Positions 46,371-58,479 of a DNA stretch of 64,000 bases are shown here, one piece after another. Positions within the stretch are counted from its first letter, which is position 1, and each line of letters opens with the position of its first letter. Source of the stretch: Phycisphaerae bacterium (GTDB lineage Bacteria; Planctomycetota; Phycisphaerae; Sedimentisphaerales; Anaerohalosphaeraceae); the NCBI GenBank assembly GCA_018052735.1, contig JAGPMT010000007.1, positions 1-64,000 on the forward strand, in the 5' to 3' direction. A program made the position numbers and the translations under genes. The notes below the pieces were generated by a model. That model saw nothing but the letters and a program-made list of their open reading frames with translations, was not told the origin of the DNA and made no database searches.

Positions 46371-47228
46371 ATGGAAACAAAAAAAATACTGGGTCTGATA
46401 GCCGGGCAAGGGCGTCTGCCTTTTCTGGTGGCCGATGGCGCCCGAAAGGCAGGTGTAACAGTGATCTGTGTCGGACTGGCTGACAATGCCGAGCCCCAGC
46501 TGGCAGAACACGCAGATATTTTCTTTTACGGCAGCATTGCCCGCCCCGGCGGATGGATCCGCAAGCTTCGCAAATACGGCGTTCGCAATGCTATTATGGT
46601 CGGCCGGGTTTCCAAGAAACAGATTTATACGCCTTGGAGGATAGTCAAGTATCTGCCGGATTGGCGGGCCCTGCGGATCTGGTACTGGCGTTTGCGGAAA
46701 AAAGACAAACGAAACCATACGGTGCTATGCGCCATAGCCGATGAATTTGCCAGCGCCGGCATCTTTCTGGAGGATTCGACAATGTACTGCAAAGAACACC
46801 TGTCCGACTGCGGGGTCATGACAGCCTGCCAGCCGCCTGCTTATGCATGGGACGACATTGATTTCGGATGGCCTCTGCTCAAAAAAGTCAGTGAACTGGA
46901 TATCGGGCAGGCGATTGCCGTACGGGAGCGGGAGATTATCGCGGTTGAAGCCATTGAAGGCACGGCCCGCATGATCGAACGCGCCGGCCAGCTGTGCAGA
47001 AAAGGCGGATGGACATTGCTGAAAGCCCCGCGCTGCCATCATGACATGCGCTTTGATGTGCCGTGCATCGGACCGGATACAATTGAAAGTCTGAAGCAGA
47101 ACAACGCCTGCTGTGTCGCCCTCGAAGCAGGCAAAACGCTCATCCTTGACAAACCGCAAACACTGGCACTGGCCGACAAGCTGGGAATAGCCGTCGTGGG
47201 ATTAGCCGGCACCGAACGTGGTCATTGA
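46371..47228 (+). CDS. lpxI: UDP-2,3-diacylglucosamine pyrophosphatase LpxI
   Basis: LpxI hydrolyses UDP-2,3-diacylglucosamine to lipid X in bacteria that lack LpxH. The family (DUF1009) marks are LGLIAGQGRLPFLVADGARKAG at the N terminus, FYGSIARPGGWIRKLRKYGV, and in the C-terminal half SELDIGQAIAVREREIIAVEAIEGTARMIERAGQL and MRFDVPCIGPDTIESLKQN. At 285 residues it matches the family. It follows lpxD with a five-base gap. Its 3' end overlaps the end of the convergent giant gene by 27 bases. Confidence 0.94.
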   Translation: METKKILGLIAGQGRLPFLVADGARKAGVTVICVGLADNAEPQLAEHADIFFYGSIARPGGWIRKLRKYGVRNAIMVGRVSKKQIYTPWRIVKYLPDWRALRIWYWRLRKKDKRNHTVLCAIADEFASAGIFLEDSTMYCKEHLSDCGVMTACQPPAYAWDDIDFGWPLLKKVSELDIGQAIAVREREIIAVEAIEGTARMIERAGQLCRKGGWTLLKAPRCHHDMRFDVPCIGPDTIESLKQNNACCVALEAGKTLILDKPQTLALADKLGIAVVGLAGTERGH

Positions 47229-50200
47229 TTCAAGGAGGCGGCCAAGAACTTCCGCTTCCAGAGAACTTTCGTTCTTGTCTATGCGTTTTTTCAGAATAGC
47301 CGTTACCTCATCGCCGAGAACTCTATACAGGCGCTCCAGACAGTTTTGAGCTGCTGTTCGAACAGACGAAACAGGTGCAGCCAGAGCTTCTGCAAGGCAA
47401 TGGATAACATACTCAACTTTCATCCCTTTTTTCAAAACCAAGTCGGGCAATTCATGGTCTGATACCCCTTGGGCATCCGCGGCAAATCGGACTGCATCGA
47501 TATGGTCAGGCAGATGAACATTGGCCATCATGCAATAGGTCTGAATATAGTCTCTCAGCAGCCGCAGCCAGCGGTGATCCGTTGTAAAGGCATTGTACGA
47601 CAGGTCGCTGTAGCGAAGCTTCCGCGGCTGTCCTTTCTTATCCAGATAATGGAGCCGGCGTCCGTTGAAATAAATCTCCACGGCATCCAGCATGGCTGTC
47701 AGGAGCGATTCTCCATTAAAACCGCTGAACTTTATGCCATTAGGAGGAGATTCCGTGTCGCCAAAATCTGCATCGCATACGGTGCGGATCAATCCATCCT
47801 GATGATGTGCAATGACAGGAGTGCCTCCTGCGTGGGCCTCCTGCTGGCTGATTCCGCACGGTTCCCCAACCTCGCCGCCGGAGGGCATTACAAAAAACTG
47901 GCTTCCCACATATACATTTCGATACAGGGATGCCGGCAGAGTCCCTTCCGGATAATAAGCAAAACGGCCCCGATATTCGGGCATAGATGCAATCCGCCGG
48001 AAATGCATATCAAATCGGCGGCCGTCCCAGGAATCTTCCACCCTGCCGCAGATAACAAACTGGATGCGGCTGTCGCAGTTTAGGAAATATTCCAACACCG
48101 TCGGTCCCATCATTTTCCAGGGTTCATAGGTTATCCACCGATTCCCTTTATCCTGATAAGCCTTCCAGTCCACCAGCAGTTCAAAACCCTTCTGCTTGCT
48201 GATACGGTGAAGCATTGAGAAAATGACATGATGATGCGTATCGTCATCCGGGGTCAGGCGAATAGCCGGATCGGTCTGAAAGGCGCGTTTGGCAAGCAGT
48301 TTGGCCCGGGTATATTTTGCAAAAAGGCGTTTGCGGGCAGCATGGTCGTATGTTTCAAGAATGCTTTTCTTGCAGCTGAACCAAAACCTCTGCCGGGCCG
48401 CCATATTAAAGCCGTTGCGGCGGCCGAAAAAACGGCCCTCCGCTTCCATCTGCCGGAACAAATCGGCATAGCCGAAAACCTGCGGTTCATCCAGAATCCG
48501 CCGCTTCATAGCACGGCTGACTGTTCCAATATGATCGGAGGTCTTCAGCATCAGGTAGGTCAGGTCAATTTGCTGGCAAAAAGGTCCTGAGGGATTTAAG
48601 CAAATATCACTGTGGGCTTCCAATCCGAGAACCCGGCAGTAGTAATACCGGCGGAAAGTATTGGCTTCCGCCAAACGGATGCTGTATGACGGATGAGGAT
48701 TGTGCATCATTCCGACAACACGGGTATTATCAAAATGCGGATCGGTGTTATAGTCTGTCCAGCGCCGCAAATAAGCCCCAACCAGCCACGTGGGCCACTC
48801 GTTCATCTGAATAATAGCAGGGTAATAATTATAGGCACGAAGGGCTTCCAGTGCTCCCTGCGAAAGAACCCTTGCCCTCCGCAGCTTGTCTTCCCCGGTC
48901 TGGCCGCCATACGGAGCGTCAAGGTATTTGCCGTTTTCCAGATACAATACTTCGACACGGACATGCTTGCCGTGCTTGTATCGAAGAATCTGACTGCGCA
49001 GGATATTGACGATATCGGGCGAAGTGTTAGTTCGTATGGATTGAGAGGCCTCATCAAATTCAGGAAAATGAATGGCGAAGCTGTATCCATCGTAGCGGGG
49101 GGTATATGTTTTGAGAATTTTATCCCGCAGCGATTCATACAGCGGCGTCACGACGACAATATGAAATCCAAGTTCGCTTAACACATCGGCAATATCCGTC
49201 GTATAAATGCCCACCCCCCCTGCCGTACCGCTGTAGTGGGATTCAGGAGAAACCAGAACAATGGTTCCAAGGTTCATCCCATGCAGGATATCGGCTGCCG
49301 ACTGGCAAACGGCGGTTTCGAACTGATTCCCCTCGTTGACGGCAATCCGCATTAAAAAATGGATAATAGCAGTTCGGCGCTGGGCATTGTCTTCACTGAT
49401 TTCCGCCAGCAGCGAGGTCAATACATTCAGTCCGAGTTTTCTCTTGTGATCGATCCATGTTGCCAGAAGCACGAAATATTCCGCAAACGCCTCAAAGCTA
49501 TGGGGGGCTTCATCAGCTATCCCCGCTATAATCCGTGCAACATAGGTATAGCGAACCCGATCCTGCTTTCCGTAAAGCGGATACCGGACAAACGAATCCA
49601 GCATCATCTGGTGACGGCTGACCCGATCGCTTTTATCGATCAGCTCAAAAACGTGTGAAGAAACAGGTCCCAATGTTCCGCCGAATCCCAAATGGATCAG
49701 CTCATTGCCCCACCAGAATTCTTTTCGGGCTCGGCGGGACCGTCCTTCTGTATTGTTGTACCGTTCGGTAATCTCATAAATGCTGTCGGGGCGGATTTGT
49801 TCCAGCGGACTTCGGTCAAAAGCATTGCAAAGGAGAAAATTGAAGCGTCTGGGCACAGCCTGCTGACCCTCGGCATGGGAAGCAGGAAAATTGAAGACGC
49901 ACAGAAACAAATGGTCTTTATAGGCACGCAGAAACGCAGCAATACGGCCGTTTTGGGTATTGAGGGGGATAACCTCACCGCGAACCAGCGCCGGATACTG
50001 TTCCACAAAAGCAAAAAGTCCGCGCAGATATTTGCCGAATCCGTACAGAATAGGATAAGCCGTCAGAATCCGCCAGCGGGCCTTGTTTTCTTCATGCCAA
50101 GGATGGCCAAACCGATTGTTAACCCAGTGCTTCCAGCATTCCGTATAGGCCTCATCAAACCGCTGCTGCATCGAACCGGCGGAAGCCCCTCCCAACCGGC

Positions 50201-52709
50201 TGATATGGTACATCAGCGGTCCCTGGCTGCTTAATACCAAAAAAGCAGCAGCCGGCCATATCATATTCTGATAATTGCTGGCCGGCGACTCCTCATCATG
50301 GCTGTTGAACAGCGACAACGTCTGGCCGCCATAGGTCTTGTAAATAGCATTCAGATACCGGAGATTATCATTTAACCCCAAGGGGGCATCTGCCGGCTGG
50401 CCGCTGCGGATATGTTCGAGATTCTTGATCAGCGAATTGTACGGGGTGGTGCCCGATTTGATCATCCGTATTTCATTGCCGTGCCACTGTTCTGCGTAAA
50501 TAACTGTCGCGTGAGGAACTGCTTTCTGTATCCGATAACACATATACAGCAGCGGGATGTTCGGCTCTTCGGTTTTTCGCAAGTCCACCTGCTCAAATCC
50601 TTTTACTGTTACCTGCCCCAGCAGACGGGCAGTCCCCTCAAGCTGTTCAGAGATCGGGAAAACCGTATCAAATCCGTGGCCTACATCGATCCGCAGTCCG
50701 AAGCCTAACTGGGCCAGCTCAATGCCGATTTCGGCCAGCGCATCGACATTTTCAAAATCCCTCATATTGACCATAAAGCTGTCCAGCCATTCGCTCCATT
50801 CCCCATCCCAGCCGGCTCGGCGTACCAACTTGCCGTTTGAATCGGCAATATAGACCGGCATATGATAGGCAAAAGAGACATTGGCCCGCGAAAAGTGCGA
50901 CAGAACACACAGCAGAACCTTCATCCCCAGCTGGTCTGCTTTTTGACGCAGATAGAGCAGGGCTTCGATGCCCCCCAAGTCGCGCCGGACTGTCTTTCCG
51001 TCCCAGACGGAAAACACAGACGGATCAGGCCCTGCCTCGCCGGCCCAGCCCAGTTCCAGCGCCCCCAGCGGATACAGCCGTGTATACCCTTCGGCTCGAA
51101 TCGCTTCCAGCTGTTCGGCAATATCATAAAAGGTGCCGTATACATACATTCCATCTTCATTTTTTACCGGCTGATACTTGTCATCCAGCTGCAGATTAAA
51201 CGTATCCGCATAAAAGCTGAGAACCCGCTGGCCGCGTTCATCGGGTACAAATTTGATCAGGCCGTGCGAATTTTCATCCAGCTCCTCCCACTGCCACGAT
51301 GCGCCATTGTCATCGGAAATCTGCACGGCATAGTGAAGCCAACCGGTCCGGACAGGGAAAACGGCTGAAAATGCGATCATGGAACTGCCTTCAGCAGCAT
51401 CGTCCTGCTCCATTAAAATAGGATTTCTCCGCCGGCCGTTAGCATACCACAGAATTCGGGCTTTATATATTTTCCTGCCCGTTTGGCGGGCTTTCGGCAG
51501 GCAAATACGAACGGATGCCGGCTCGGTTCGGAAGACAGTGCGGTTGATTCGGCTGGGAGGAAAATGAAACGGACGCTCTGTTAGAATATCCGCCAACAGC
51601 CCGCTGACTTCAAGACAAATGGAACGGCACACCCCTTTGTCGGGGTGATTCCAGTAATACAGTGCTGCGTACAACAGACGAAGAGCCTGACGGGCGTTGT
51701 CTTTGCGGCGGATTTTTTTTGCCAGTTGGGAAATGGCTGTCCTGACTTTCTGCAAATCATCCGAAAGAAGCATCTCCTCCAGCACTGCCAAGGACGCATC
51801 GCTGGAATAGGCCTGACGCTCCTGCAGCCATCCGCGAATCCACCGGCCGTGATCATGGAAGATATCCGTTCTGACTTTTTTGAAAACAATAGATGTGCAG
51901 GCGAAGGAGGCGGCCATCGCATCTATTTTGTTCGAATCGCATATGCGAACCGCCTTCAGCAGCTTCGGATTCAATTCATACACAAAAACCACTGAATTGC
52001 TGTCTGTATAAAACCGCTTGAATCCGGTCAGAATCTTTTCTTGGGTCGCCTTGATCAGAAGATCCGATTGACAGGTGCGGACACAGCTTTGAAGGATTTG
52101 CCTGAGTTTCTGACGCGCCGAGGTCTGGGGCAAGCGCAGAGCTTCCTGCAGGAGCAGCTGCGTCTGAGGACTTTTAGCCAACCGGGTCCAAAAACGGTCC
52201 AGCAGCATAATCTCCTCAATCTGCATAAGCGTTTCCAGCCAGTCTGGCTCATCGAAAAGCGGCGCGTTTTCCTGCATTTCCTGAATCGTCGATTTGAGAA
52301 TATCCCGGTGGGCATCATAAAACCGCAGAGTGTGCATGCGCACCTGCGTGATATGCAGTTCAGGATTGCACCAGTGGTAAAGTGCTCTGTAAAGAATGCC
52401 CATCAGCATCCGATGCCGATGCGGCAGGCGTCGTTTTTCGACGGTCAACAAAGCAGCATTCATCAGGATATCATGCGGAAGCAGGGAAGCCGTGCCGGCG
52501 GCAGAATCTGTAATCCGCACCTGCACCCTCTTGTTGATCAGCATGCGATACAAAGTCTTGGATTCCTGCTTAATGAGGGACAGTATTTCCTTTAAGGCGG
52601 TAGTCAGGATAAGCAGCTGATCAGAAGGAAGTTTTTGAAGGGATGTTTCAGAGCAGGTGAATTTCACGCTGTCGGAAGCATCATAGTGAAATACAATCAG
52701 TACATCCAT
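47202..52709 (-). CDS. Giant alpha-amylase-type (GH13) + glycogen synthase-type (GT5) fusion protein
   Basis: This is one continuous frame of 1835 residues. The first 400 residues are helical with no recognised domain. A beta-rich section (about 400-490) resembles a carbohydrate-associated module. Residues about 515-1000 form a GH13 barrel with an intact triad: nucleophile D675 in FGLRIDVGHGF, acid/base E740 in VIYAEQW, and D805 in FNSHDEES. Residues about 1145-1700 form a GT5 module with the phosphate-site variant GTAGGVGIYTTD (1161-1172), HNPHPS, and the pair E1616/E1624 in GEPCGISQQEAHAGGTPVI. The last 100 residues are helical, repeat-like. No signal peptide or membrane segment is visible, so it should be cytoplasmic. 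The order GH13-GT5 is that of fungal alpha-1,3-glucan synthase; here it lacks the membrane part. It converges with lpxI, overlapping by 27 bases. Confidence 0.8.
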   Translation of the reverse strand: MDVLIVFHYDASDSVKFTCSETSLQKLPSDQLLILTTALKEILSLIKQESKTLYRMLINKRVQVRITDSAAGTASLLPHDILMNAALLTVEKRRLPHRHRMLMGILYRALYHWCNPELHITQVRMHTLRFYDAHRDILKSTIQEMQENAPLFDEPDWLETLMQIEEIMLLDRFWTRLAKSPQTQLLLQEALRLPQTSARQKLRQILQSCVRTCQSDLLIKATQEKILTGFKRFYTDSNSVVFVYELNPKLLKAVRICDSNKIDAMAASFACTSIVFKKVRTDIFHDHGRWIRGWLQERQAYSSDASLAVLEEMLLSDDLQKVRTAISQLAKKIRRKDNARQALRLLYAALYYWNHPDKGVCRSICLEVSGLLADILTERPFHFPPSRINRTVFRTEPASVRICLPKARQTGRKIYKARILWYANGRRRNPILMEQDDAAEGSSMIAFSAVFPVRTGWLHYAVQISDDNGASWQWEELDENSHGLIKFVPDERGQRVLSFYADTFNLQLDDKYQPVKNEDGMYVYGTFYDIAEQLEAIRAEGYTRLYPLGALELGWAGEAGPDPSVFSVWDGKTVRRDLGGIEALLYLRQKADQLGMKVLLCVLSHFSRANVSFAYHMPVYIADSNGKLVRRAGWDGEWSEWLDSFMVNMRDFENVDALAEIGIELAQLGFGLRIDVGHGFDTVFPISEQLEGTARLLGQVTVKGFEQVDLRKTEEPNIPLLYMCYRIQKAVPHATVIYAEQWHGNEIRMIKSGTTPYNSLIKNLEHIRSGQPADAPLGLNDNLRYLNAIYKTYGGQTLSLFNSHDEESPASNYQNMIWPAAAFLVLSSQGPLMYHISRLGGASAGSMQQRFDEAYTECWKHWVNNRFGHPWHEENKARWRILTAYPILYGFGKYLRGLFAFVEQYPALVRGEVIPLNTQNGRIAAFLRAYKDHLFLCVFNFPASHAEGQQAVPRRFNFLLCNAFDRSPLEQIRPDSIYEITERYNNTEGRSRRARKEFWWGNELIHLGFGGTLGPVSSHVFELIDKSDRVSRHQMMLDSFVRYPLYGKQDRVRYTYVARIIAGIADEAPHSFEAFAEYFVLLATWIDHKRKLGLNVLTSLLAEISEDNAQRRTAIIHFLMRIAVNEGNQFETAVCQSAADILHGMNLGTIVLVSPESHYSGTAGGVGIYTTDIADVLSELGFHIVVVTPLYESLRDKILKTYTPRYDGYSFAIHFPEFDEASQSIRTNTSPDIVNILRSQILRYKHGKHVRVEVLYLENGKYLDAPYGGQTGEDKLRRARVLSQGALEALRAYNYYPAIIQMNEWPTWLVGAYLRRWTDYNTDPHFDNTRVVGMMHNPHPSYSIRLAEANTFRRYYYCRVLGLEAHSDICLNPSGPFCQQIDLTYLMLKTSDHIGTVSRAMKRRILDEPQVFGYADLFRQMEAEGRFFGRRNGFNMAARQRFWFSCKKSILETYDHAARKRLFAKYTRAKLLAKRAFQTDPAIRLTPDDDTHHHVIFSMLHRISKQKGFELLVDWKAYQDKGNRWITYEPWKMMGPTVLEYFLNCDSRIQFVICGRVEDSWDGRRFDMHFRRIASMPEYRGRFAYYPEGTLPASLYRNVYVGSQFFVMPSGGEVGEPCGISQQEAHAGGTPVIAHHQDGLIRTVCDADFGDTESPPNGIKFSGFNGESLLTAMLDAVEIYFNGRRLHYLDKKGQPRKLRYSDLSYNAFTTDHRWLRLLRDYIQTYCMMANVHLPDHIDAVRFAADAQGVSDHELPDLVLKKGMKVEYVIHCLAEALAAPVSSVRTAAQNCLERLYRVLGDEVTAILKKRIDKNESSLEAEVLGRLLESMTTFGAG

Positions 52710-52881: not shown

Positions 52882-54171
52882 CTATTCATGACGTAGAGAT
52901 TCGATAGGATCCATATTGGCCGCCTGATAAGCAGGATACAATCCAAAGGTTAATCCAATCCCCGCCGATATTCCAAAGGACAGCAGCAGGGCTTGCAGCG
53001 TAATCACCGTAGGCATATTGCTGAAGATGGTTACAAGAATAGGAATGCACGTGCCTACGAACATTCCCAGCAGTCCGCCGATAAGGGTCAAAAGGATGGT
53101 TTCCGACAGAAACTGGATCACAATATCTTTCTTGCGGGCGCCGAGAGCACGGCGTATGCCGATTTCGCGCGTTCGCTCACTGACGGTCGCCAGCATAATA
53201 TTCATAATCCCGATTCCGCCAACCAGCAGCGAAATGGCCGCAATAGAGCCCAGCACAATGCTGAAGATCCGCTTGGTGCGAGCGGCCTCCCGGAGAAGTT
53301 CAAGCGGAACAATAATTTGATAATCTTTTTTCTTGTGGTACTGCTCCAGCAGAGAAGCCAGTACATCCCGGGTAGGAAGAACACGCTCCATCGAAGGCAC
53401 TTTAATGGTAATTTCGCTTAATTCGATCCGCTCCCCGCTGGCTCCGCTTGTACCGCCGAATTGAATTTGCGTCTCGCCGAAGCGGCTTTTCATCGTTGCC
53501 AGCGGGATATAGACATAGCCGCTGACTCCGCCGCCCTGCGAGGTGCGACTGACAGCAGCCGGCTCTTCTGCTTTTGCGGAGGTATCCTTGACAATCCCGA
53601 CAACGGTGTAGTATTCACCGGCAATCTTCAGCTCCTGCCCAATGGGATCATCGTAGCGAAACAGCAGTTCCTGAACCGTTTCATCAATAACGCAGACGGC
53701 CTGACTGTAGTGCATATCAATAGGCGTCAGAAAGCGCCCTCTGCGGACTTCGATCGGGGCTAATTCAGGATACCAAGCCACCGTGCCGACAGCCTCTGCA
53801 GTAATACGGCGGTTCAGATACTGCGTCTGCTGCGGCAGCCGCCGGACAGGCACTACCACTTGGGCATCCGGAATGGTATCCCGAAACCGCTCTGCGTCAT
53901 CATACCGCAGGCCGTATTCCCGAATTGTCTGCTGGCTTGCATCGGCCACTTCGATATCCGGGGGCTTAACCGTTTTGAGTATAATGTTGGTGCTGCCCAG
54001 ACGGGAAATCTGCTCCTGCGCTTCCCGGCTTGCGCCTTCCCCAATGGCCAGCATCGCGATAACACTGGCTACACCGAATACAATACCCAGCGTCGTCAGA
54101 CCAGACCGCAGGCGGTGCATCCACAGACTTCGCAAACTGATTTGCAGCAGAGCCAGAATTTCCGAAATCAT
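52882..54171 (-). CDS. MacB-like ABC transporter permease (FtsX superfamily)
   Basis: This 429-residue permease has an N-terminal membrane helix (LRSGLTTLGIVFGVASVIAMLAIGEG), a large periplasmic MacB_PCD-type domain (about 45-275), and a C-terminal FtsX part with three helices, including IGIMNIMLATVSERTREIGIRRALGARKKDI and LIGGLLGMFVG. Together with the ATPase and adaptor genes beside it, it forms a MacAB-type exporter that pushes substrate from the periplasm through an outer-membrane channel. The substrate is unknown. The ATPase gene overlaps it by four bases. The gene is last of the four-gene operon. Confidence 0.92.
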   Translation of the reverse strand: MISEILALLQISLRSLWMHRLRSGLTTLGIVFGVASVIAMLAIGEGASREAQEQISRLGSTNIILKTVKPPDIEVADASQQTIREYGLRYDDAERFRDTIPDAQVVVPVRRLPQQTQYLNRRITAEAVGTVAWYPELAPIEVRRGRFLTPIDMHYSQAVCVIDETVQELLFRYDDPIGQELKIAGEYYTVVGIVKDTSAKAEEPAAVSRTSQGGGVSGYVYIPLATMKSRFGETQIQFGGTSGASGERIELSEITIKVPSMERVLPTRDVLASLLEQYHKKKDYQIIVPLELLREAARTKRIFSIVLGSIAAISLLVGGIGIMNIMLATVSERTREIGIRRALGARKKDIVIQFLSETILLTLIGGLLGMFVGTCIPILVTIFSNMPTVITLQALLLSFGISAGIGLTFGLYPAYQAANMDPIESLRHE

Positions 54172-54902
54172 CCGCCCCCCTTTCCATTTCGGACTTCCCG
54201 TTCAATCCGTCCGTCGCGCAGATGAATCGCACGATGCGTGCGTGCTGCAACATACTCATCGTGGGTTACCACAATGATCGTCTTGCCCTGAGCATTCAAT
54301 TCATCCAGCATAACCAGAATTTCCCTGCCGCTCTGGGTGTCCAGATTTCCGGTCGGTTCGTCGGCCAGAATAATCAGAGGATCATTGGCCAGTGCCCGCG
54401 CAATGGCTACGCGCTGCTGCTGGCCGCCGCTGAGCTCATAAGGCCGATGCTTGAGGCGTTCGCCCAGTCCGACTCGCTGGGCCAATGCGATGGCCCGCTG
54501 CCGGCTTTCGGATTTGGGGATGCGCTGATAATACATCGCCACTTCAATGTTTTCGATAATGTTCAGCTGCCGGATCAGATTGAAAGACTGAAAAATAAAT
54601 CCAATCTGCTTGCCGCGGACTTGGGACAGCTGGTTATCATCCATCATCGACACATCATGACTGCCCAGCAGATAACGCCCGCTGGTGGGCTTATCCAAGC
54701 AGCCCAGAATATTCAGCAGGGTCGATTTGCCTGAACCGCTCGGCCCCATAATGGCAACATACTCTCCCTGACAAAATGTAATATCCAATCCCCTCAGGAC
54801 CGGCAGTTCCAATGCCCCGATCTGGTAGGACTTATGGAGATTCTCAATTTGTACAACCGGCTGGCCCTTGGGGGGGCTGTCAGGCACATTCTGGCGAATC
54901 AT
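54168..54902 (-). CDS. MacB/LolD-like ABC transporter ATP-binding protein
   Basis: This is a 244-residue ATPase that powers the adjoining permease. Walker A is [12 protein letters not shown], the signature is [17 protein letters not shown], and Walker B is [13 protein letters not shown], followed by the [13 protein letters not shown]-type H-loop. The MacB/LolD/FtsE subfamily is indicated by [18 protein letters not shown] and [10 protein letters not shown]. In E. coli MacB the ATPase and permease are one polypeptide; here they are separate. It overlaps both neighbours by four bases. Confidence 0.93.
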
Positions 54903-56887
54903 GGATTCTGTTCTCCCAATCCGCCGGGCTGGCGCCGTCCCTGTCTCATCATCTCACTGGCAGCCGCTTCCCTCTCCTGAGCATCGACAAAGCCGTCCTG
55001 ATTTGTATCCAGCCGCTGGAGAAACATCCGTGCCCGTTCAGGCGCTTCATCGGCCAGACTGATTTTCCCGTCGCCGTTGGTGTCCATCTCCATAAACCGG
55101 TCCGCCGGATTGCCTGCCCTTTCTCCGCCCTCTCGGCGCATTTGCCGGCGGCCGGACGGCATTTCCTCTGAACCGCTTCTGTCCGGCATGAATTCACGCC
55201 GCTGCTGCGGGTCAGCTGCGGTCGCCGCCGGCTGGGACTGCGAAGAGTCCGCCGGCTGCTCAGAGACAGCCGCTACAGGCTGCATCTCATCTGATTTGGC
55301 CGCTTCAGCCAACAGTCTCGGCGGATTCAGGAGAACCCGCTGGCCCTCCTGAAGGCCATCCACCACTTCAACAAAACGGTCATTAAACGCACCGGTCTGA
55401 ATGGGCCGTTCCTTGGGCTGGCCGCCGTCCATCACATAACAGACTTTTCGCCCCCCGCGTGTGGCAACGCACTGGACCGGAATGCTGATTACATTTTCCA
55501 GCTGGGCAATAATAATCTCAACTTGCGCGCTCATTCCCGGCTTTATCTGATCGCTGACATTTTCAATGCTGACAACCGTCGAATAGACTTTCAGATCCGG
55601 ATTGCCGAAAAACGCCTGAGGATCGGGCAGCGGGGCTATTTTCTGCACCTTTCCGGTAAATACCTTGTCGGGCTGGGCATCCACGACAATGCGCACCGGC
55701 TGTCCGACACGCACTTTGTCCACATTCGTTTCATGGACCTTCACTTCCACATCTTTTTCAGCAGCGTTGGTTACCGTCATAATCAGTTCGCGCTCGCGAA
55801 CGGCCTGCCCAACCTCGATATATGTCCGCGTTCCGCCGTATCGTCCGCCTCTGTCACTGGATGCATAGATAACCAGCCCCGGAGCCGTTGCCCGAACCGT
55901 GCAGACTTCAAGCTGCCGGCGGATACGCTCCAGACGCTCCTTATTCAGCAGATAAGTGGCTTCTGAACTGTTCAGCCGTGCCTCGGCCTGCGCCAGCCGG
56001 GATCTTGCCTGAGCATAAATGCGTTCAAGCTGCCGCTCGGCCTCCAGATAATCACTGAACAATTTCTGTGCATCCTTGGGGAATTCATACTGCTCAAACA
56101 GATCCAGAGATGTCTGCGCCTGTTCCCAGGAGACTTTTAAACGCTGCACTTTAAGCCGGTCTGCATCCAAATCCGAACGCGACACATAGGATTTCTCAAA
56201 AAGCTTCTCGGTCCAGCCCAAATCTGTGTTGGCACGTCTGTACTCCTCTTCGGCCAGACGAATATCCGCTGTGAGCTTCCGATAATTCTGAAGCGACTGG
56301 CCGCCCAGCTGATTGGGATCCCGGATTAAGTCGGTAATGACAGGCATTTCCCCCGTCGCTTTGTACTGCTCAATAAGCCGGTTGGCCATCTGCTCTCCAA
56401 GATATTTCTGCAGATCCATCCGGGCAAACTTGACATTCATCAGACCCTGCTGAATGTCAGAATCATTTTGATTTTTCTGAATCGTTAACGCTTCTTTCGC
56501 TTCTGTGTAGTTGGCCTCTGCTGAATTAAACGTTATTTCCTGCTGGTTGACATTATCCCGGAGCTCCGATGAATCCAGCTCGACCAAGACTCGGCCGTTC
56601 TGGACATCCTCTTCTGTAATATAGGTGCCCTCAGGAACCAGGCTGACGATCGTGGTGGAACCTTCCACCTGTGACTTGATTTCCATGGCGTTGCGGGCTT
56701 TGATGGTACCGCTTTCGGTCACGCTCATAATCAGATTGCCGCGGGCGGCGGTATAGGTGCTGAGCATAGCGCTGTCGACGGCCGAATCTCCGCCGCGGAA
56801 GCGATAGGCCGCATAAGCCGCAAGAACAATGCCAGCAACAACTGCAATTAAAAGAATTTTTTGTCTGTTTCTTCCAGTGATTCCCAT
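54899..56887 (-). CDS. MacA/HlyD-type periplasmic adaptor with C-terminal EF-hand pair
   Basis: This adaptor links the inner-membrane exporter to the TolC channel. An N-terminal helix (ILLIAVVAGIVLAAYAAYRF) anchors it. Lipoyl halves, a long coiled-coil hairpin (about 105-330) and the beta-barrel section (VEVKVHETNVDKVRVGQPVRIVVDAQPDKVFTGKV) follow in order. After a Gln/Ser/Pro-rich linker (about 540-595) two EF-hand loops occur at the C terminus: DTNGDGKISLAD (602-613) and DTNQDGFVDAQE (627-638), both with the acidic 1, 3, 5 and 12 positions. Ordinary MacA is about 370 residues. The calcium-binding tail is unusual for this family. The start overlaps the TolC-like gene by 40 bases. Confidence 0.88.
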   Translation of the reverse strand: MGITGRNRQKILLIAVVAGIVLAAYAAYRFRGGDSAVDSAMLSTYTAARGNLIMSVTESGTIKARNAMEIKSQVEGSTTIVSLVPEGTYITEEDVQNGRVLVELDSSELRDNVNQQEITFNSAEANYTEAKEALTIQKNQNDSDIQQGLMNVKFARMDLQKYLGEQMANRLIEQYKATGEMPVITDLIRDPNQLGGQSLQNYRKLTADIRLAEEEYRRANTDLGWTEKLFEKSYVSRSDLDADRLKVQRLKVSWEQAQTSLDLFEQYEFPKDAQKLFSDYLEAERQLERIYAQARSRLAQAEARLNSSEATYLLNKERLERIRRQLEVCTVRATAPGLVIYASSDRGGRYGGTRTYIEVGQAVRERELIMTVTNAAEKDVEVKVHETNVDKVRVGQPVRIVVDAQPDKVFTGKVQKIAPLPDPQAFFGNPDLKVYSTVVSIENVSDQIKPGMSAQVEIIIAQLENVISIPVQCVATRGGRKVCYVMDGGQPKERPIQTGAFNDRFVEVVDGLQEGQRVLLNPPRLLAEAAKSDEMQPVAAVSEQPADSSQSQPAATAADPQQRREFMPDRSGSEEMPSGRRQMRREGGERAGNPADRFMEMDTNGDGKISLADEAPERARMFLQRLDTNQDGFVDAQEREAAASEMMRQGRRQPGGLGEQNP

Positions 56888-58479
56888 AATCCATCCGGCT
56901 TAACGTTTAACAGTTCAATATCACGATAAAAGTTCAATTTGGCCAGCATATAATTCACCAGCGTTGACGTCGTATCATTCTGTGCCGAAAGCAGAGAATC
57001 CTGTGATTCCAAGAGGTCACGGGATTGGGCACGTCCGGCCTGCAGAAGCATGGTTGTACTGTTGACGCGTTCTTGAGCCAGTTCCAGACTGATTTTTTGG
57101 ATTTCGTAGCGGCGAGCAGCCTCTATCAGCTGGTTGTAGGCATTCCGCACATCCAGCTTGACCTGATCGACGGTCTGTTCATAGTCGCGCTGGGCCTGTA
57201 AAGCAGAAATCAGGGCCTGCCGGTATTCTGCTGCTTCGGCCTTTTTGTCAAGCGGCAAATCCATTGTCAGCCCGGCGCTGTAGGTGCCCTCATCAAATTG
57301 AAGACGATACCACTGATCGGTTTCTGACGAAGGAGACCGGACATTGCTGATGCCGGCATTCAAATCCAGCCGGGCACGCAGCCGGTCAGCGGCAACTTTC
57401 ACTTTGCGGCGGGCATCGTCTACGCTGTCCAATGCTGTGGCTATATCCAAACGGTTTTGAAGCGCCAATTGAACCGCTTCATCAACGGGGAAATTGGGTT
57501 CGGCTATCTTCATCGCCTTTAAACCGGCTAATTCATTGGGATCCAGTTCAATGTCGGCATCGACCGGCAGGGCCAGTGTCAGCTTGAAATTATCGAGCGC
57601 ATACTGATAGGATCGCTGGGCTTCGGCCAAACGGTCTCGGGCCTGCAGCATCCGCTGCTCGGTCTGATCCGCTTGCATTTGCGCCAGCTTGCCTGCCTGT
57701 GCCTTCAGGGATGCTTCTTCATAAGCCGCTCGAAGGCTGGCATAGTTGCTTTGGGCATTTTTAACGCTGTCCTGCGATTGAAGGGTTTGAAGATAACCGC
57801 GGACAATCGAGACGACAAACTCCTTGCGGTACCGGCTGAACCTGCGGATTTGGTACAGAACCCGTCTTTCGGATTGTGTGAGATTTTCCTGAACAATCTC
57901 TTTCCCACCGCCGCGCATCAGAGGTTTAGAGATGCTGGCGCTTAAAACCGAACCCAGCGAGGTTCGCGGGCTGCCGGTGAGAAACTGCATCCAGTCTATT
58001 GCCAGACTGCTGCCGATCTGTGTTCCATCCGCCAGAAGCTGATTAAAACCGACCCGCCCTCCTGCATCCACAGATTCATCCGATGCCGAGCGGGCATAGC
58101 CGCCGTCGATTGTGCCAAACCACTGCCTTACATAATTATGCCGTTCCAGCGACAACGACAATGCAGAATTGTACAAATCCTCCTTGTTTCTCTGGTACGT
58201 CCGGCTGCGGGCAGTGGCTATCGCGACGGCCTGAGCCAGCGACAGACGGCCGGAAGGCATCCAGTTCGGATCAACAATGACATCATTGGGGTCCGGCTGG
58301 ACATCGGCAATACGATAGTTGGCCTTGACCCCATGTTCAGGACGCCATTTTTCATCGAGAATAGTATACACTTCCTCGTCTGTCTTGGCTTTATAGTCTT
58401 CAGCTGTTTTACAGCCGAATAAGCCGCTCAACAAACAAAGCAGTCCAATCCGCAGATACAATCGCTTCTTTCTGGCCAA
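56848..58479 (-). CDS. TolC-family outer-membrane efflux lipoprotein
   Basis: This 543-residue outer-membrane channel protein starts at a TTG. Its N-terminal signal has a lipobox (CLLSGLFGCK, cysteine 23), so it should be lipidated, as NodT-type and some TolC-like proteins are. Two helical OEP repeats are apparent, rich in Gln/Ala/Leu/Arg (for example LRAAYEEASLKAQAGKLAQMQADQTEQRML and LIEAARRYEIQKISLELAQERVNSTTMLLQAGRAQSRDLLESQDSLLSAQND). It is the first gene of the four-gene MacAB-TolC-type operon. The start follows TGGGGCTTTAAT. Confidence 0.88.
   Translation of the reverse strand: MARKKRLYLRIGLLCLLSGLFGCKTAEDYKAKTDEEVYTILDEKWRPEHGVKANYRIADVQPDPNDVIVDPNWMPSGRLSLAQAVAIATARSRTYQRNKEDLYNSALSLSLERHNYVRQWFGTIDGGYARSASDESVDAGGRVGFNQLLADGTQIGSSLAIDWMQFLTGSPRTSLGSVLSASISKPLMRGGGKEIVQENLTQSERRVLYQIRRFSRYRKEFVVSIVRGYLQTLQSQDSVKNAQSNYASLRAAYEEASLKAQAGKLAQMQADQTEQRMLQARDRLAEAQRSYQYALDNFKLTLALPVDADIELDPNELAGLKAMKIAEPNFPVDEAVQLALQNRLDIATALDSVDDARRKVKVAADRLRARLDLNAGISNVRSPSSETDQWYRLQFDEGTYSAGLTMDLPLDKKAEAAEYRQALISALQAQRDYEQTVDQVKLDVRNAYNQLIEAARRYEIQKISLELAQERVNSTTMLLQAGRAQSRDLLESQDSLLSAQNDTTSTLVNYMLAKLNFYRDIELLNVKPDGLWESLEETDKKFF

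Follow-up and report, generated by a model that had tools for sequence, protein, structure and literature searches.

The window, by which we mean the whole 64,000-nucleotide stretch that was analysed, carries on its minus strand a gene for one conserved polypeptide in which a divergent GH13-type domain and a GT5-fold glycosyltransferase are joined, with the catalytic residues of the GH13-type domain all kept. The frame contains no internal stop, and the uninterrupted 1835 residues claimed in the sequence-only reading, which named no strand, were recovered at exactly 47202-52709. The features of the gene, from the N-terminal to the C-terminal end, are as follows:

47202..52709, minus strand: whole coding sequence of the 1835-residue GH13-GT5 fusion (P0001); ATG start at 52709, matched in orthologs
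51555..52709, minus strand: residues 1-385, mostly helical, family-specific N-terminal region; no Pfam match; mean identity 42%
51240..51554, minus strand: residues 386-490, predicted beta-sandwich before the barrel, as in the N-domains of MalZ, neopullulanase and GlgE; strands at 389-465
49620..51239, minus strand: residues 491-1030, divergent GH13 barrel and C-terminal beta domain; profile, hhalign and Foldseek matches, Malt_amylase_C in orthologs
50685..50687, minus strand: codon of D675, GH13 nucleophile, in the motif GFGLRxDVGHG with R673; invariant in 20 of 20 orthologs
50490..50492, minus strand: codon of E740, GH13 acid/base, in the motif EQWHGNE; invariant in 20 of 20
50295..50297, minus strand: codon of D805, GH13 transition-state stabiliser, in the motif FN[ST]HDEE with H804; invariant in 20 of 20
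49275..49619, minus strand: residues 1031-1145, linker of helices (at 1029-1144) that connects GH13 to GT5; mean identity 49%
47514..49274, minus strand: residues 1146-1732, GT5-type GT-B glycosyltransferase; PF08323 and fold match, TIGR02095 below cut-off
47838..47864, minus strand: E-x7-E pair E1616 to E1624 (EPCGISQQE); invariant in 20 of 20
47205..47513, minus strand: residues 1733-1835, variable and helical C-terminal region; mean identity 31%, helices at model positions 616-715

The fusion was found in 26 of the 161 genomes of the same order, with two families represented, and is a complete single frame in about 18 of these 26. Counted on independent contigs there are 17 loci, with 53-74% identity, all of them in Planctomycetota, a range that comes from one scan for close relatives. 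The planctomycetes that carry it are mostly uncultured, and the single-contig genomes listed for the order (G287, G127, G432 and G433) lack it. Viral contigs yielded no matches, and plasmids gave GlgA-type matches only (22-23% identical). Elsewhere in the phylum, relatives of the N-terminal region and the GH13 part were limited to faint matches to the C-terminal end of the latter. The literature searched held no description of a GH13-GT5 fusion in bacteria, nor of a well-described family with the same domain order.

The GT5 module is well supported by both profile and fold. The starch synthase catalytic domain PF08323 scored 77.7 bits against a gathering score of 22.7 (E 1.5e-21), and the GlgA model TIGR02095 scored 104 bits against a curated cut-off of 328.45, and thus below it (E 7.7e-30). 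The structural model matched starch and glycogen synthases with Z scores of 22-24, including starch synthase IV (6gne; Foldseek E 2.2e-17, VIA Z 24.1) and E. coli glycogen synthase (2qzs; VIA Z 23.4), these two over 457-475 residues. R1502, K1507, E1616 and E1624 are invariant in the 20 orthologs, and the E-x7-E pair had been numbered correctly; the first three of these residues align with GlgA positions, E1616 with the catalytic-loop Glu of E. coli GlgA. The loop GTAGGVG, which had been taken for a variant phosphate loop, has an invariant GG-x-G, but the position aligned to the lysine of GlgA KTGGL can be T, S, A, H, N or E, thus the family lacks that lysine instead of having one fixed variant. 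Moreover, the active-site HDWH of GlgA is NEWP in all orthologs, N1303 replacing the first His in 20 of 20, so that donor, acceptor or linkage may differ from those of GlgA. The phylogeny that had been proposed was run against GlgA, and the fusion GT5 formed a separate deep branch (stem 2.16, support 100/99), although the deep branching among fusion, GlgA, cluster GT and phosphorylase-like lineages was weakly supported (56/22).

The GH13 assignment could be confirmed only indirectly, since Pfam PF00128 does not match the window protein and reaches E 0.035 in just 1 of 15 orthologs. Profile matches to PDB entries are co-linear with both ends of GH13 enzymes (3dhu at 525-633, trehalose synthase at 902-948), and Malt_amylase_C was detected at 916-947 in 13 of 15 orthologs and below cut-off in the window protein. 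With hhalign the GH13 part matched E. coli MalZ (E 4.2e-5), and MalZ alone, as nothing convincing was obtained against the single E. coli AmyA, TreC, GlgB and GlgX sequences. Structure prediction of this region, as had been suggested, gave top Foldseek matches to GH13 enzymes only; all 36 matches with E <= 0.001 were of this kind (best 2.5e-6), in a low-confidence model whose barrel has a pLDDT of 28-76 and reaches a VIA Z of at most 7.7. Alignments to neopullulanase and GlgE structures begin at model residue 394. The triad D675, E740 and D805 had been assigned with the right residue numbers, and these three, together with R673 and H804, are invariant in 20 of 20 orthologs while overall identity falls to 54%. 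In motif I the usual Asp is lost in most orthologs, and the usual Asn is lost as well.

Conservation differs strongly along the protein. Across the 20 orthologs, mean identity is 70% in the GH13 part and 69% in the GT5 part, versus 42% and 31% in the N- and C-terminal regions; with both catalytic parts equally conserved and the ends far less so, the two seem selected for activity. Residues 1-385 were modelled mostly at pLDDT 80-94 as alpha with some beta, and no known fold or family was found for them; they were modelled with other residues and may still have a known fold. The C-terminal part gave one HEAT-like match, which was not significant (E 0.26). The fusion has no signal peptide, exporter domain or transmembrane segment, the best 19-residue Kyte-Doolittle mean being 1.41, in agreement with the earlier reading.

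The genome of the window also contains a separate, ordinary glycogen cluster with GT, GH57 and GH133 genes, and the cluster GT and debranching genes also occur in genomes without the fusion. No GlgC match over cut-off was found in 32 genomes, in a search that recovers just 7 of its 14 controls above cut-off; a search for galU, which was uninformative, gave no match over cut-off in the window genome. The fusion, patchily distributed in one planctomycete order and lying beside a separate, general glycogen cluster, is thus probably an extra alpha-glucan enzyme. Of the earlier suggestion of a cytosolic storage-polymer enzyme, the cytosolic nature stands, but a plain storage-glycogen synthase is weakened by the presence of this cluster. 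Directly downstream of the GH13-GT5 fusion, two relatives, G361 and G348, encode another giant fusion, made up of a phosphorylase-like GT, GH133 and GH13, which points to an alpha-glucan. The neighbours of the fusion gene are otherwise not conserved and differ between genera, and a TolC/MFP/ABC/permease set lies upstream in three cases only, namely the window, L001 and L005; inference of function from gene neighbourhood was therefore dropped.

The probable role of the fusion is intracellular synthesis and editing of an alpha-glucan. With slightly better than even confidence, we propose a soluble, cytosolic, bifunctional enzyme that combines a GT5 polymerase with a GH13 chain editor. The GT5 half would extend alpha-1,4-glucan chains from a nucleotide-glucose, the donor more likely being UDP- (or GDP-) glucose than ADP-glucose, since no GlgC exceeded the cut-off in the genomes checked and the KTGGL lysine is missing. 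The tethered GH13 half may cut and re-join nascent chains, by branching, 4-alpha-glucanotransferase or primer-forming transfer, and because it is covalently attached, growth and shaping of the polymer could take place within one molecule. A probable role of the helical region at the N-terminus is to anchor the enzyme to its glucan or to partners. The idea that the fusion might trim its own glucan fits the data. Against the proposal stand the failure of PF00128 to recognise the GH13 part and its poor barrel model, the NEWP motif, the varying gene neighbours, the absence of a galU match over cut-off that would point to a source of UDP-glucose, and the inactive GH13 half of Waddlia GlgA-GlgB.

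A hydrolase or phosphorylase-like GH13 part, freeing short oligosaccharides as GT5 primers or for turnover at donor shortage, is an unlikely alternative. The N-domain and barrel are closest in structure to MalZ/neopullulanase-type hydrolases and GlgE, and apart from the fusion no GH13-like protein was detected in the window genome (0 matches to PF00128); however, this structural ranking comes from a low-confidence model, and hydrolase and synthase in one chain would be a futile pair unless regulated. Somewhat less likely still is a counterpart of fungal alpha-1,3-glucan synthase, with a non-alpha-1,4 or mixed-linkage glucan, transglycosylated by GH13, destined for export or the cell surface. 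The altered acceptor/donor region of GT5 (NEWP, QDGL) would suit it, as would the shared order of GH13 before GT5 and the extracellular domain of Ags1, which is thought to join chains through transglycosylation (PMC5753165), but the fusion lacks any export signal of its own and no consistent export genes lie nearby. A catalytically dead GH13 part that only binds glucan or acts as a scaffold, in what would simply be a second glycogen synthase, is quite improbable: the blindness of PF00128, the eroded motif I and the inactive GH13 half of Waddlia GlgA-GlgB (PMC7935935) would be in line with this, yet all five active-site residues are invariant and conservation equals that of GT5. Finally, although bacterial GT5 enzymes are as a rule stand-alone, an assembly error or chance joining of neighbouring genes is practically excluded, since the same single frame recurs in independent assemblies from many environments, a search of 397 genomes from the class gave no stand-alone relative of the fusion GT5 at E <= 1e-8, and 17 independent loci at 53-74% identity are far beyond chance.

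The preferred reading, an enzyme that makes and edits its glucan in the cytosol, suggests a second alpha-glucan in some planctomycetes, formed via a route without GlgC. A bolder reading, which we hold to be rather doubtful, is a membrane-free bacterial analogue of the design of fungal alpha-1,3-glucan synthase, a self-contained polymerase plus transglycosylase. It would make an alpha-glucan with a new linkage pattern or architecture while normal glycogen metabolism is retained, and the second giant enzyme seen in some relatives would degrade the same polymer.

Compared with GlgA and starch synthases (TIGR02095; 6gne), the fusion shares the GT-B fold and keeps RxxxxK and E1616, but its GT5 part is only 18-19% identical and below the GlgA cut-off; it has NEWP for HDWH, no KTGGL lysine and a second Glu in E-x7-E. 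Like neopullulanase/MalZ and the maltosyltransferase GlgE (GH13_3), it is predicted to have an N-terminal beta-sandwich, a barrel with the triad and a C-terminal beta domain, although similarity is very low and the conserved motifs I and III (LSHFS, EQWHGNE) depart from their classical forms. The plan of fungal alpha-1,3-glucan synthase (Ags1/AgsB), which the sequence-only reading had recognised, holds for the domain order in one chain, but the likeness ends there. Ags1 consists of an extracellular domain, a transmembrane segment, an intracellular synthase and a multi-transmembrane domain (PMC5753165), and has a signal peptide; compared by description, the planctomycete protein, having no membrane segment, is not built like it and has an extra 385-residue N-terminal region. 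It could serve as a soluble system in which to study the two-domain logic of an enzyme that is difficult to handle as a membrane protein. The nearest precedent is the GlgA-GlgB protein of the Chlamydiae Waddlia and Estrella, in which a glycogen-synthase GT5 and a GH13 are likewise fused within the PVC superphylum and GlgC is lost. There, GT5 precedes a GH13 branching enzyme, whereas the planctomycete order is reversed. The Waddlia protein, the one characterised GT5/GH13 fusion tested, has an inactive GH13 part, and its decaying gene was presented as an exception without parallel (PMC7935935). In contrast, the planctomycete enzyme would offer a natural case of fused chain synthesis and chain editing in which both catalytic sites are apparently preserved.

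The gene for the GH13-GT5 fusion was read from the sequence alone as one uninterrupted frame, and this was borne out. Its ATG follows a weak Shine-Dalgarno-like GGAAG, and the start site lies at about the same position in the orthologs. The gene and its convergent neighbour are:

47202-52709, minus strand: fusion gene, ATG at 52709, 1835 residues, zero internal stops
46371-47228, plus strand: LpxI-like gene, 3' end sharing 27 bases with that of the fusion gene

The LpxI-like gene scored 115 bits, below the 400-bit cut-off. TolC, membrane-fusion, MacB-like ATPase and permease genes (52882-58479, minus strand) are co-oriented with the fusion gene and run up to it, and same-sized genes in the same order were found upstream of the fusion at two other loci (L001 and L005) and nowhere else.

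A single scan covering 84,980 species genomes found close relatives at 17 loci. All are in Planctomycetota MAGs with labels such as Sedimentisphaerales or Phycisphaerae, and the majority of the loci cover residues 1 to ~1800 in one frame. Within the order Sedimentisphaerales, 26 of 161 genomes, belonging to two families, carry the fusion, with complete copies 54-74% identical over their whole length. These two counts rule out the assembly error joining neighbouring genes that had been considered initially. Seemingly split copies in other genomes mostly coincide with contig ends or gaps; one ortholog (G400, contig C203, 304-5548) is broken near residue 1624 into two overlapping frames, possibly by a frameshift or sequencing error. 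Distribution is patchy even within a family, one genus (g3) lacking the fusion in all six genomes examined. No full-strength fusion was found beyond the order, either among 294 genomes of the phylum (2 matched) or with a GH13-half profile (3 of 392 genomes matched), and the 16 of 397 class genomes matched by a GT5-half profile were all carriers inside the order.

The GT5 assignment was confirmed by a PF08323 match at residues 1150-1419 (E 1.5e-21) and by an AlphaFold model of residues 1120-1835 (pLDDT 77.6), which matched starch synthase IV, E. coli glycogen synthase and granule-bound starch synthases with Z 23-24 over 451-475 residues. TIGR02095 also matched (7.7e-30), but far below the GlgA cut-off. 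All 20 orthologs keep R1502, K1507, E1616 and E1624, including both residues of the previously noted E-x7-E pair, and in our alignment the first three correspond to R300, K305 and E377 of E. coli GlgA. The second Glu of E-x7-E is Tyr in E. coli GlgA, and HDWH of that enzyme is consistently NEWP in the fusion family. The phosphate loop, first noted as the variant GTAGGVG, does depart from GlgA KTGGL, yet not as one fixed variant, since the lysine position is variable across the family. In a glycosyltransferase tree, which makes the comparison with GlgA suggested by the sequence-only reading, the fusion GT5 occupies its own long branch, separate from both GlgA and the glycosyltransferase of the order's glycogen cluster, the deeper branches being poorly supported.

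The GH13 half is very divergent. PF00128 did not match the window protein, and just one of 15 orthologs reached 0.035, while 13 of 15 touched Malt_amylase_C. A profile of the 15 orthologs matched alpha-amylase at residues 525-633 and trehalose synthases/sucrose isomerases at 891-948, covering the two ends of a GH13 enzyme in the correct order, and hhalign aligned residues 504-603 with E. coli MalZ (E 4.2e-5). Between these ends lie the invariant motifs GFGLRxDVGHG (R673, D675), EQWHGNE (E740) and FN[ST]HDEE (H804, D805). Motif I is altered to LSHFS, in which His is kept and Ser replaces Asn, and its Asp is absent in seven of the eight orthologs printed. A model of residues 1-1145, poor in the barrel, gave 36 Foldseek matches at E <= 0.001, all GH13 enzymes, led by maltodextrin-glucosidase-like and neopullulanase-type enzymes and GlgE; VIA Z was below 8 throughout, so the predicted GH13 fold of the middle of the protein is supported rather than proven. 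The triad proposed earlier (D675, E740, D805) is kept in all 20 orthologs.

Measured against the window protein, identity averages 70% in GH13 and 69% in GT5, compared to 49% in the linker, 45% in the beta-sandwich, 42% in the N-terminal region and 31% in the C-terminal tail; judged by these values, both modules appear to be under equal selection. No membrane segment was found in the fusion protein, in agreement with the sequence-only reading.

In two genomes of the second family, a second giant gene lies directly downstream of the fusion gene:

L011:7436-12127 (G361): second giant fusion, 1563 aa
L101:746-5368 (G348): second giant fusion, ~1540 aa, 69% identical over its length to the L011 copy

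The L011 copy combines a phosphorylase-like glycosyltransferase (TIGR02094, 4.3e-32), a GH133 debranching domain (5.6e-96) and GH13 (2.2e-13), and reads EACGTSDQR versus EASGT.xMK of phosphorylases, which places Arg at the PLP lysine position. In G346, a stand-alone 643-aa version of the phosphorylase-like domain (L104:11795-13726) adjoins the fusion gene divergently. These neighbours tie the fusion to alpha-glucan metabolism. Other stand-alone relatives of this domain (626-653 aa) occur in G345 (C29), G346 (C433) and G347 (C468 and C630).

The window's genome also has an ordinary glycogen-type cluster on a separate contig (C46):

L105:5734-10424: glycosyltransferase (PF08323/PF00534), GH57, GDE_N-GDE_C debranching enzyme

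Its glycosyltransferase and debranching genes are common to carriers and non-carriers. The genome contains no PF00128 protein and two GT35 phosphorylase-like genes. One of these (C49:157260-158771) encodes a shortened protein of 571 aa (normally ~800 aa) with the EASGTSGMK lysine motif retained; across the order, similarly sized proteins recur beside one of 870-900 aa. GlgC exceeded the cut-off in 0 of 32 genomes of the order, a cut-off that 7 of 14 controls also fail. This makes an ADP-glucose route for the fusion unlikely and, together with the separate cluster, marks the fusion as an accessory enzyme of alpha-glucan metabolism.

On balance, we slightly favour a cytosolic polymerase of alpha-glucan to which a GH13 editor is tethered. 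No description of a bacterial GH13-GT5 architecture was found in the open-access literature searched. The likeness to fungal alpha-1,3-glucan synthase Ags1 drawn earlier holds for domain order, but the membrane parts that define Ags1 (PMC5753165) are absent from the fusion. The closest bacterial precedent is GlgA-GlgB of Waddlia and Estrella, a fusion termed exceptional in all domains of life and inactive in its GH13 half (PMC7935935), with a domain order opposite to that found here.
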